This document shows positions 30,765 to 50,490 of a stretch of 64,000 nucleotides of DNA, piece by piece. A model generated the notes under the pieces. It did no database searches and was not told the DNA's origin. It saw nothing but the letters and a program-made list of their open reading frames with translations. The position numbers and the translations under genes are program-made. How positions within the stretch are numbered: the first letter of the stretch is position 1; each line of letters opens with the position of its first letter. Origin of the DNA: a bacterium (GTDB lineage Bacteria > Oederibacteriota > JAAXVQ01 > JAUVAV01); the NCBI GenBank assembly GCA_021108215.1, contig JAIORK010000012.1, positions 62,001-126,000 on the forward strand, written 5' to 3'.

Positions 30765-30840
30765 CGGGGTGTAGCGCAGTGGCTAGCGCACCTGCTTTGG
30801 GAGCAGGGGGCCGTCAGTTCAAGTCTGACCACCCCGACCA
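30765..30840 (+). tRNA. tRNA-Pro (TGG)
   Basis: 76 nt, with complete cloverleaf: acceptor CGGGGTG/CACCCCG, D arm GCGC...GCGC, anticodon arm CCTGC-TTTGGGA-GCAGG (anticodon TGG), T arm GTCAG-TTCAAGT-CTGAC, discriminator A and encoded CCA. Confidence 0.97.
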
Positions 30841-30869
30841 AATTTTCCGTAGAACGAAAAATTTGGTCG
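30835..30869. repeat. Hairpin overlapping tRNA-Pro 3' end
   Basis: Arms CGACCAAATTTTCCGT (30835-30850) and ACGAAAAATTTGGTCG (30854-30869), 15 of 16 pairs, loop AGA. The 5' arm includes the tRNA's last bases and CCA. AGAGTAATTGA starts at the next base, as it does after three other hairpins in the tRNA loci. Confidence 0.7.
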
Positions 30870-31007
30870 AGAGTAATTGAGCAAATGGAGAAATTGAAAA
30901 GCTCAATTACGGTCTGCTGATCCGCTGTTCAGCTGATCTTGGTTGGTTTTTTTTGAGCAGCAGAGCCGCTCCGCTACCGCGTCGCATGTCCCAGTAGCTC
31001 AGCTGGA
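30870..31007 (+). repeat. Duplicated tRNA spacer, copy 1
   Basis: Begins AGAGTAATTGAGC and runs through a stem-loop (GTAATTGAGC 30873-30882 / GCTCAATTAC 30901-30910). It continues through GGTCTGCTGATCCGC, GCAGAGCCGCTCCGCTACCG and CGTCGCAT into the first 20 bases of a tRNA-Arg. It is nearly the same as 31113-31267, apart from an internal indel of roughly 17 bp near 30945. Confidence 0.85.
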
Positions 31008-31112
31008 AATTGCATGACCTGATAGGAACCGCCTTCGGCGATTATTGTAAAGCAGGTTAGAGCAACGGATTTCTAATCCGTCGGTCGCAGAGCTTCGCGT
31101 CTGGCGCGAAGC
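30988..31112 (+). pseudogene. Broken tRNA-Arg(TCT) copy with D-loop insertion
   Basis: Identical to the intact tRNA-Arg(TCT) at 31248 for the first 20 nt (30988-31007) and again for 33 nt (31058-31090; anticodon arm with TCT). The D loop is split by 50 nt (31008-31057). The T arm and 3' acceptor strand are replaced by a perfect hairpin GCTTCGCG-TCTGG-CGCGAAGC (31092-31112). It cannot form a normal acceptor stem, so it is not a functional tRNA even if the insert were removed. Confidence 0.8.
31008..31057 (+). other. Structured 50-nt insertion in tRNA D loop, copy A
   Basis: Can fold with outer stem ACCTG (31017-31021) / CAGGT (31053-31057) and inner hairpin CGCC-TTC-GGCG. The same-length element recurs at 50112-50161 with about 40 of 50 bases identical, and the inner stem there is TGCC-TGT-GGCA, a compensated C:G to T:A change. 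No known family recognised. Confidence 0.75.
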
Positions 31113-31267
31113 AGAGTAATTGAGCAAATGGAGAAATTGAAAAGCTTAATTACGGTCTGCTGATCCGCTGTTCAGCTGATCTTGGTTAATTCTTTCTCGA
31201 ACAGCAGAGCAGTTGAATAGCAGAGCCGCTCCGCTACCGCGTCGCATGTCCCAGTAGCTCAGCTGGA
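31113..31267 (+). repeat. Duplicated tRNA spacer, copy 2
   Basis: Second copy of the 30870-31007 spacer, from AGAGTAATTGAGC through GTCGCAT to the D loop of the intact tRNA-Arg(TCT). One stem base differs (GCTTAATTAC). It carries extra sequence TTCTTTCTCGAACAGC and AGTTGAATAGC. Confidence 0.85.
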
Positions 31268-31324
31268 TAGAGCAACGGATTTCTAATCCGTCGGTCGCAG
31301 GTTCGAATCCTGCCTGGGATACCA
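31248..31324 (+). tRNA. tRNA-Arg (TCT)
   Basis: 77 nt with acceptor GTCCCAG/CTGGGAT (last pair G-U), D arm AGCTC...GAGC, anticodon arm ACGGA-TTTCTAA-TCCGT (anticodon TCT), T arm GCAGG-TTCGAAT-CCTGC and encoded CCA. It is the intact partner of the broken copy 240 bp upstream. Confidence 0.96.
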
Positions 31325-31373
31325 AACTAAGAAAAGGGACAAGTGTTTAGTATTTGTCCCTTTTCTTAGTTTG
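31323..31373. repeat. 20-bp perfect hairpin after tRNA-Arg(TCT)
   Basis: CAAACTAAGAAAAGGGACAA (31323-31342) pairs perfectly with 31354-31373; the loop is 11 nt. The 5' arm begins with the tRNA's CCA. It could terminate or protect the tRNA precursor in either direction, although no clean T tract follows. Confidence 0.75.
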
Positions 31374-31384
31374 ATTAGCATATT

Positions 31385-31509
31385 GCAGGATTCGAAGCGA
31401 ACAGCCGCCGAGCGAATAGCGAGGGAGAGCCCTCCGGGCGTCAGGCTGTGAGGTGAGGCTACGCAACGAGCTCTGCGAGTGTAGTGGCCGAATCCTGCCT
31501 GGGATACCA
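31385..31509. repeat. Duplicated tRNA-Arg 3' end (att-like) and inverted T-arm copy
   Basis: Bases 31489-31509 repeat exactly the last 21 nt of tRNA-Arg(TCT) (31304-31324), from CGAATCC to the CCA. Bases 31385-31396 (GCAGGATTCGAA) are an inverted 12-nt copy of its T arm. Direct duplication of a tRNA 3' end is the usual footprint of site-specific integration. Only about 165 bp lie between the copies and no integrase is seen, so it would be a remnant. Confidence 0.7.
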
Positions 31510-49881: not shown

Positions 49882-49959
49882 GGTGGACGTAGCTCAGTTG
49901 GTTAGAGCGCTAGGTTGTGGTCCTGGAGGCCGCGGGTTCGAGTCCCGTCGTCCACCCCA
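49882..49959 (+). tRNA. tRNA-His (GTG)
   Basis: Acceptor GTGGACG/CGTCCAC with the extra 5' G (49882) opposite discriminator C73, as expected for His. Anticodon arm with TTGTGGT (anticodon GTG), T arm CGGG-TTCGAGT-CCCG and encoded CCA. A hairpin follows: GATTTTTTCG (49960-49969) / CGCAAAAATC (49975-49984), with AGAGCAATTGA at the next base. Confidence 0.96.
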
Positions 49960-50092
49960 GATTTTTTCGTAAAGCGCAAAAATCAGAGCAATTGAATTTT
50001 GTAGGGAGGAATTTTGTATTCGCCCCTGGCTGGGCGATTACATCCGGCATTTGCCGGACACAAGTGGGATCGCCCCTATGATTGATATTTTT

Positions 50093-50198
50093 GCGCCGGT
50101 AGCTCAGTGGAAATTGTATGACCTGAGCGGAGTTGCCTGTGGCAATTATTGTAAAGCAGGTTAGAGCAACTGCTCATAGCGCCTCGCTACACAGGCGC
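50093..50198 (+). pseudogene. Broken tRNA-like sequence with D-loop insertion
   Basis: First 19 nt (50093-50111) differ at one base from the intact tRNA-Arg(CCG) just downstream. TAGAGCAAC (50162-50170) resumes the D arm after a 50-nt insert. No anticodon arm, T arm or acceptor 3' strand remains. Instead there is a CTCATAG stretch, then a perfect hairpin GCGCCT-CGCTACAC-AGGCGC (50179-50198) followed at once by AGAGTATTG. The parent isotype is unclear (Arg by the 5' half). Confidence 0.75.
50112..50161 (+). other. Structured 50-nt insertion in tRNA D loop, copy B
   Basis: Same length and position as copy A at 31008-31057. Outer stem ACCTG/CAGGT is unchanged; inner stem is TGCC-TGT-GGCA with a compensated pair relative to CGCC-TTC-GGCG in copy A. 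ATTATTGTAAAGCAGGT is identical between the copies. Confidence 0.75.
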
Positions 50199-50218
50199 AG
50201 AGTATTGGATTATTTTAT

Positions 50219-50294
50219 GCGCCTGTAGCTCAGTGGATAGAGCAACGGCCTCCGAAGCCGTGTGTCGGACGTTCGATTCGTCTCAGGCGCACCA
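50219..50294 (+). tRNA. tRNA-Arg (CCG)
   Basis: 76 nt: acceptor GCGCCTG/CAGGCGC, anticodon arm ACGGC-CTCCGAA-GCCGT (anticodon CCG), T arm GGACG-TTCGATT-CGTCT with one G-U pair, and encoded CCA. Confidence 0.95.
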
Positions 50295-50319
50295 ATTTTT
50301 TGCGAAGCGGAAAGCTGTA

Positions 50320-50342
50320 GGGGCGAATCTTGTATTCGCCCC
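50320..50342. repeat. Palindromic repeat GGGGCGAAT/ATTCGCCCC
   Basis: Perfect 9-bp arms with loop CTTGT. A degenerate copy (GGGAGGAAT-TTTGT-ATTCGCCCC) lies upstream at about 50003-50025. Both are followed by a GGGCGAT segment. This 'GTAGGGGCGAAT' type of dispersed repeat is common in bacterial intergenic DNA. Confidence 0.65.
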
Positions 50343-50490
50343 TTTCCGGGCGATCACAAGGATCGCTAAAGGAAATTTAAAATTCAGAGCAGTAGAACAG
50401 TAGAACAGTTGACCGCAGGTTCGCATTTTTTTAATCACCTGCTCAACTGATCGATTGTTCACCTGCTTTGATGCTTGCTCCGCGAGCATT

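Follow-up and report, generated by a model that had tools for sequence, protein, structure and literature searches.

Broken tRNA-Arg Copies and a Small Structured T-Loop Element at tRNA Genes of a Bacterial Genome

Introduction

Genes for tRNA are classic landing sites for mobile DNA, which is normally accompanied by an integrase. Structured inserts are tolerated by structural RNA genes, examples being the Rickettsia palindromic elements and the intervening sequences of 23S rRNA. In integron attC sites, with their R boxes (RYYYAAC/GTTRRRY) and IntI, the ends of a unit pair through a short inverted repeat that encloses a folded core, and the units form head-to-tail arrays. IS200/IS605 and REP/RAYT systems have a guide followed by a hairpin and a cleavage site to which the guide base-pairs, and comprise small non-coding hairpins. 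Partial tRNA copies that stem from integrative elements are well documented (PMC9897764), and those elements carry integrases and large cargo. The ssrA-GIs of Dehalococcoides (PMC3146451) resemble the element described below in their insertion in the T-loop, a direct repeat from T-loop to CCA, tandem occupancy, an upstream gene left intact and the presence of tmRNA among the targets. The element differs from them in being only ~200 nt long, with neither integrase nor cargo module, and in having a conserved three-way-junction core, a left arm complementary to the T-arm, and many tRNA types as hosts.

The starting point was a window of 64,000 nucleotides (contig C12, 62001-126000) from the genome G000 of an uncultured bacterium (3.56 Mb, 67 contigs); the genome was read in stretches around tRNAs and candidate genes. 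What emerged is a structured, apparently non-coding unit of ~110 nt. It is found at one T-loop position, its hosts are tmRNA and many kinds of tRNA from different phyla, and its arm follows the sequence of the host tRNA. The route by which it enters T-loops and the reason for the arm match are direct, testable questions, and care is due in tRNA gene prediction and in assembly around the tRNA clusters of these phyla.

Results and Discussion

Broken tRNA-Arg Copies at Two Loci

Loci A (30765-31324) and B (49883-50294) share one layout, in which a tRNA is followed by a hairpin, a broken tRNA-Arg with a 50-nt D-loop insert, another hairpin and an intact tRNA-Arg (Table 1). All of the intact and broken tRNAs that a preliminary description had placed at locus A are present in the order given. 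Its claim that this order recurs at 49882-50294 also stands, but the broken copy there (pseudo-B) lacks the anticodon arm as well. The units of a hairpin plus a fixed motif that it counted as parts of the cassette do exist, but the motif differs, reading AGAGCAATTGA after tRNA-His and AGAGTATTGGA after pseudo-B, and they are not peculiar to the cassette: a hairpin followed by AGAG stands after 20 of 44 G000 tRNAs (vs. one on the opposite strand of those flanks) and is a general tRNA 3' flank, i.e., a normal spacer feature of this genome.

Table 1. Features of loci A and B, in coordinates of the window.
Feature	Position	Strand	Evidence
tRNA-Pro(TGG), intact	30765-30840	+	ARAGORN, Rfam
Hairpin overlapping tRNA-Pro 3' end, then AGAGTAATTGA	30835-30880	+	Inverted repeat 30835-30850/30854-30869
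Spacer copy 1 (duplicate of 31113-31247)	30870-30987	+	Direct repeats D1/D2
Pseudo-tRNA-Arg(TCT), positions 1-20	30988-31007	+	100% identity with intact gene
D-loop insert A, 50 nt; hairpin closed by TGACCTG/CAGGTTA	31008-31057	+	
Pseudo-tRNA-Arg(TCT), positions 21-53, without T-loop, T-arm 3' strand and CCA	31058-31090	+	100% identity
Hairpin GCTTCGCGTCTGGCGCGAAGC replacing the missing tRNA 3' part of pseudo-A	31092-31112	+	
Spacer copy 2, probably the ancestral Pro-Arg spacer	31113-31247	+	Direct repeats; relatives
tRNA-Arg(TCT), intact	31248-31324	+	ARAGORN, Rfam
Perfect inverted repeat, 20 bp, probable terminator	31323-31373	+	
Left arm GCAGGATTCG, reverse complement of the adjacent tRNA-Arg T-arm 3' strand	31385-31394	+	
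Structured T-loop element core, three-way junction with GCCGAGCGAATAGCGAGG	31387-31496	+	Model R1
Second tRNA-Arg 3' end, position 57 to CCA	31489-31509	+	21/21 identical
tRNA-His(GTG), intact	49883-49959	+	ARAGORN, Rfam
Pseudo-tRNA-Arg(CCG), 5' part	50093-50111	+	18/19 identical to Arg-CCG start
D-loop insert B, 50 nt	50112-50161	+	41/50 identity with insert A
Remnant TAGAGCAA, hairpin (AGCGCC...GGCGC), AGAGTATTGGA	50162-50218	+	
tRNA-Arg(CCG), intact	50219-50294	+	ARAGORN, Rfam

The broken copy at locus A (pseudo-A) consists of positions 1-20 of tRNA-Arg(TCT), the insert, and positions 21-53, its tRNA parts matching the intact gene, which lies 158 nt downstream, at every position; on its 3' side the hairpin at 31092-31112 is followed by AGAGTAATTGA. 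Pseudo-B retains the acceptor 5' strand and D-stem only, and its insert is followed by TAGAGCAA and nothing further that is tRNA-like. Missing from pseudo-A is the part from T-loop to CCA, and from pseudo-B everything past the D-stem, anticodon arm included. The D-loop insertion point is identical in both (GGA / TAGAGCAAC), and the two inserts agree without gaps at 41 of 50 positions, vs. a best chance match of 25-28/50 in ten shuffles of the window. Their nine differences spare the flanks and leave the outer TGACCTG...CAGGTTA pairing unchanged; most of them are confined to the inner hairpin, one of whose C-G pairs has become T-A. Taken alone, the folding energies of the inserts are unremarkable (z of -1.2 and -2.0). 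The spacer of locus A is duplicated too, its copies differing at 2 of 76 nt and at 2 of 51 nt.

Misassembly by duplication is unlikely because the inserts differ at nine of 50 positions, and a split, permuted or spliceable tRNA gene was rejected on account of the tRNA parts missing from pseudo-A and pseudo-B. The idea that an element splits a tRNA and then restores it is not supported: a pseudo-tRNA without its T-loop-to-CCA portion could not be restored by removal of the insert, and the arrangement fits better with duplication of a tRNA, the extra copy being tolerant of inserts. The hairpin that follows pseudo-A is similar to the one in the Pro-Arg spacer of the family relative G001, which suggests that the second spacer of locus A is probably ancestral and the pseudo-tRNA unit the newcomer. 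REP-like GTAGGGGCGAATCTTGTATTCGCCC repeats occupy tRNA spacers at 50001-50045 and 50317-50361 of the window, and similar GTAGGGGCGGACCTCCGTGTCCGCCC repeats occur between tRNA-Pro and tRNA-Arg in G005 (L059).

Distribution of the D-Loop Insert and of Broken tRNA Copies

The D-loop insert is a local curiosity; of the two features, the neighboring T-loop element is more widely distributed and better supported. Two copies of the insert were found in G000, both within dispensable tRNA copies, and searches of 98 genomes, of viral contigs and (by exact pattern) of a genome-contig collection returned chance hits only, e.g., L003 and L004, which have no tRNA context. A widespread D-loop element was therefore rejected, and the role of mobile agent that had been proposed for the insert is not supported. 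The pseudo-tRNAs were also looked for in relatives, where the orthologous clusters contained spacer only: His-Arg(CCG)-Lys in G001, G002, G003, G005, and G006, Pro-Arg(TCT) in G001, G005, and G006, and Gln-Glu(CTC) in G001. Judged by these comparisons, the pseudo-tRNAs of loci A and B are specific to the lineage of G000.

The proposal of a repeated process at tRNA genes fared better, with the T-loop element found across phyla and partial tRNA copies near five loci among the 45 tRNAs of G000, namely Arg-TCT (both sides), Arg-CCG, Glu-CTC (two fragments), Ser-GGA, and fMet (a 3' copy). Upstream of the intact tRNA-Glu(CTC) and tRNA-Ser(GGA) these copies are 5' fragments, and those before the former gene are two broken copies arranged in tandem as perfect units of 239 nt (L040 1470-2200, - strand). 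The broken Glu and Ser copies stop at the T-loop, where GGGGTTCG and GGGTTCG, respectively, give way to a hairpin, and the pseudo-tRNA breaks of Arg-TCT, Glu and Ser all lie in the T-arm or T-loop. Broken tRNA-Ser(GGA) also has 16-nt inserts in its anticodon loop and T-loop that are mutual reverse complements (L035:9081, 9149). Considered as a further partial copy, tRNA-Ser(CGA) was rejected, being intact in L035. Only 3'-type partial copies occur in G001, and no adjacent partial copies were found at the sampled tRNAs of G003, G004, and G006. At L035 9042-9496 the order is broken tRNA-Ser(GGA), a GIY-YIG ORF (PF01541) and then the intact gene. G000 contigs C12 (at its end), C33, C42, C50, and C59 start or stop ~300 nt or less from a tRNA gene, a pattern that assembly breaks at tRNA-associated repeats would produce.

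Anatomy and Fold of the T-Loop Element

Downstream of the intact tRNA-Arg of locus A, after a strong terminator-like inverted repeat, lies the T-loop element (31385-31509), a three-way junction of ~110 nt whose end repeats the tRNA 3' end. Its order is GCAGGATTCG-core-CGAATCCTGC, then the remaining tRNA 3' end, and the 21 nt at 31304-31324 are repeated at 31489-31509, spanning T-loop to CCA. Model R1 scores the core at 112 bits (E 5e-25), with this copy itself belonging to the model alignment. Rfam contained no such family, its matches above gathering score in the window and 16 loci being limited to tRNA, tmRNA and SRP; no known RNA family was matched by insert or element, and no earlier description of the element appeared in the literature searched.

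The same succession of tRNA, flank, left arm, core, and T-arm 3' strand to CCA was found at ~40 non-redundant loci, in units of ~200 nt that are apparently non-coding and contain no integrase. Left arms match their own tRNA over 7.64 nt vs. 4.77 ± 0.18 nt when permuted (n = 53), and the maximum in 10,000 permutations, 5.45 nt, is below the own-tRNA value. Changes in the arm are accompanied by changes in both 3'-end copies at the orthologous Arg-TCT site of G000 and two family members. In arrays and apparently young copies (L064, L096, L111, L133, L150, L175) the repeat is longer and takes in the flank; decayed cores occur at L037 and L040. The consensus three-way junction derived from 19 cores has 97.5% of cells paired, and 14 of its 28 pairs have changed on both sides, with a covariation score of 0.369 vs. 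0.120 when shuffled; all slid controls collapse. The helix made with the T-arm is among those showing compensatory change.

Hosts and Spread of the Element

Relatives of the element were found in Omnitrophota, Goldiibacteriota, FCPU426, Deltaproteobacteria, spirochaetes, and others. Host genes represent at least 13 tRNA identities plus tmRNA, and include tRNAs for Gly, Ser, Gln, Asn, Val, Leu, Ala, Thr, Arg, Glu, Trp, Met, Lys, and Pro. The 18-nt hairpin motif of the core occurs in 98 stretches of the genome collection, compared with ~15 by chance as estimated from collection size; its viral and Clostridia matches stand in other contexts and were rejected as elements, and the core was not found in plasmid records. 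Searches with model R1 located the element in 8 of 59 genomes, patchily within the phylum. It sits at the same gene in G000, G001, and G005, and none was found by the model in G003, G004, and G006. The 3' end of the tmRNA gene carries the element at L095, L107, L132, and L160, including Treponema. A second, different structured core, also ending in a repeated tRNA 3' end, is present in G001 at tRNA-Thr(TGT) and tRNA-Pro(CGG) (L253 1899-2080, L256 1814-1995). At L164, upstream of the core, a tRNA 3' end is preceded by group I intron-like sequence beside the T-loop element.

Relation Between Pseudo-tRNAs and the T-Loop Element

We connect the pseudo-tRNAs with the element on account of two other genomes. 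In G026, a genome from the same phylum which we take to be a member of the Goldiibacteriota, four units (two of them partly N-masked) follow tRNA-His and precede an intact tRNA-Arg(CCG), each composed of the tRNA-Arg(CCG) 5' part to the T-stem, the core exactly in the T-loop, and the T-arm 3' strand. The order is that of locus B and the gene, Arg(CCG), is also shared; the core occupies the T-loop in place of an insert in the D-loop. In G007, a relative from the same order, a tRNA-Arg(TCT) on a contig shared with tRNA-Pro has the core from the T-arm onward, running off the contig (L056). Within G000 the connection is one of co-location only; insert and core have no sequence in common, and the link thus rests on co-location and the T-arm breakpoints. 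The repeated tRNA-targeting process suggested initially is supported in part, in that tRNA genes are hit repeatedly and the T-loop element is lodged in them across phyla, and is not supported for the D-loop insert.

We favor, at a probability of roughly one half, a combined account of tandem tRNA-Arg duplication and a T-loop element that lodges in tRNA and tmRNA genes. The tRNA-Arg gene would have been duplicated in tandem together with its spacer, after which one copy would keep tRNA function and the redundant copy would take structured inserts in its loops and lose its 3' part. The small non-coding element may drive, or at least accompany, duplication at tRNA T-loops: at locus A it lies downstream, and locus B involves the same Arg(CCG) gene as the Goldiibacteriota arrays. 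We infer both that the element is mobile and that it is causally linked with the pseudo-tRNAs bearing D-loop inserts.

The alternative that survives best, although we consider it rather unlikely, is that two unrelated things meet at one locus, i.e., that decayed tandem tRNA duplications were hit by a small palindromic repeat of this lineage, comparable to Rickettsia palindromic elements, independently of the T-loop element. It would accommodate a D-loop insert limited to two copies in dispensable tRNAs, a Glu locus that is a plain, perfect 239-nt tandem repeat, and the occurrence of T-loop elements without a 5' pseudo-tRNA in G001. Against it, the breaks of Arg-TCT, Glu and Ser fall in the T-arm or T-loop, the three genomes in which R1 found no element (G003, G004, and G006) also lack adjacent partial copies at the tRNAs sampled, G000, G001, and G005 have the element at one and the same gene, and in G026 the core itself makes the pseudo-tRNA.

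Candidate Enzymes

Two tyrosine recombinases are encoded in 12 of 13 genomes and one in G007, whether the element is present or not, and they are therefore probably XerC/XerD only; no recombinase dedicated to the element was found among the 13. Most element-bearing genomes lack serine recombinases, and most lack reverse transcriptases, RVT_1 being missing from G001, G005, G007, G020, G023, and G026, where past action is possible. With no consistent gene in the carriers, a retroelement or a serine or tyrosine integrase was rejected as the agent. Y1 transposases are present in all 13 genomes, and no REP-like, tRNA-like or AGAG motifs were found around the five Y1 genes of G000; a REP mobilized by a Y1 transposase/RAYT was rejected, as the element shows no linkage with Y1 genes. 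No autonomous version of the T-loop element was seen.

These surveys weigh against a second, improbable alternative, in which the partial copies are attL/attR scars of lost integrative elements that entered the T-loop and brought a new 3' end with them. As with integrase-type elements, the 3' end of the tRNA is directly repeated and a functional tRNA is restored. Every unit is ~200 nt and devoid of an integrase gene, these genomes have no dedicated tyrosine integrase, and the same covarying core recurs across several phyla at no fewer than 13 tRNA types, each time with an arm matched to the tRNA. More improbable still is a selected function as RNA (as tRNA-like decoys or regulators made from the tRNA transcript, for example) for the pseudo-tRNAs or the structured element, for which one might cite A/B insert differences that spare the flanks and cluster in the inner hairpin (one C-G to T-A) and an element structure conserved at an orthologous site across genera, but the lineage-restricted pseudo-tRNAs, tandem arrays, decayed copies (L037, L040), and variety of unrelated host tRNAs suggest a mobile repeat rather than a gene.

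Possible Mechanism and Comparison with Folded Mobile Units

Under the combined account, the ends of the element would pair with each other via the host gene's own T-arm, with the consequence that the tRNA 3' end, from T-loop to CCA, is found twice and the upstream tRNA is left intact. The mechanism is constrained because the unit is non-coding and ~200 nt long, its junction lies in the T-loop, and its arm matches the host. The active, recombining form is most likely a folded single strand of DNA or RNA, as in attC or the ends of IS200/IS605. The arm match would be kept by hairpin-templated correction or by targeting, and could derive from the former rather than the latter.

Like integron attC cassettes, the element has paired ends around a folded core and forms tandem head-to-tail arrays, but it lacks R boxes (RYYYAAC/GTTRRRY), and the paired ends are the T-arm of the host tRNA. 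With IS200/IS605 and REP/RAYT it shares the order guide, hairpin and site with base pairing, as well as small non-coding hairpins, and differs in its lack of association with Y1 genes, a pairing of 7-14 nt, and the duplicated tRNA 3' end. Structured inserts in structural RNA genes are likewise tolerated in the case of Rickettsia palindromic elements and 23S rRNA intervening sequences, whereas in the present case the functional tRNA is an intact copy apart from the interrupted one, and no sequence relation to those inserts was shown. Tentatively, and at odds well short of even, the element may represent an undescribed class of miniature mobile element, made of a folded core only, targeting the T-arms of tRNA and tmRNA genes with a target-complementary arm that would be either acquired or employed for targeting at every new site, and forming arrays and pseudo-tRNAs beside an intact copy, in effect a guide-like, protein-free tRNA parasite in several phyla.

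Several minor observations concern individual copies. The 18-nt hairpin GCCGAGCGATTAGCGAGG of the core also occurs inside integron attC-like sequences at L078 and L081. A 23S_rRNA_IVP ORF (PF05635; L040 883-1251, - strand) lies between tRNA-Glu and a decayed T-loop core (786-874, - strand). At L132, L127, and L133 the element has hairpin loops ACAGGATGT / CATGGATG, which we take to resemble the CsrA binding consensus.
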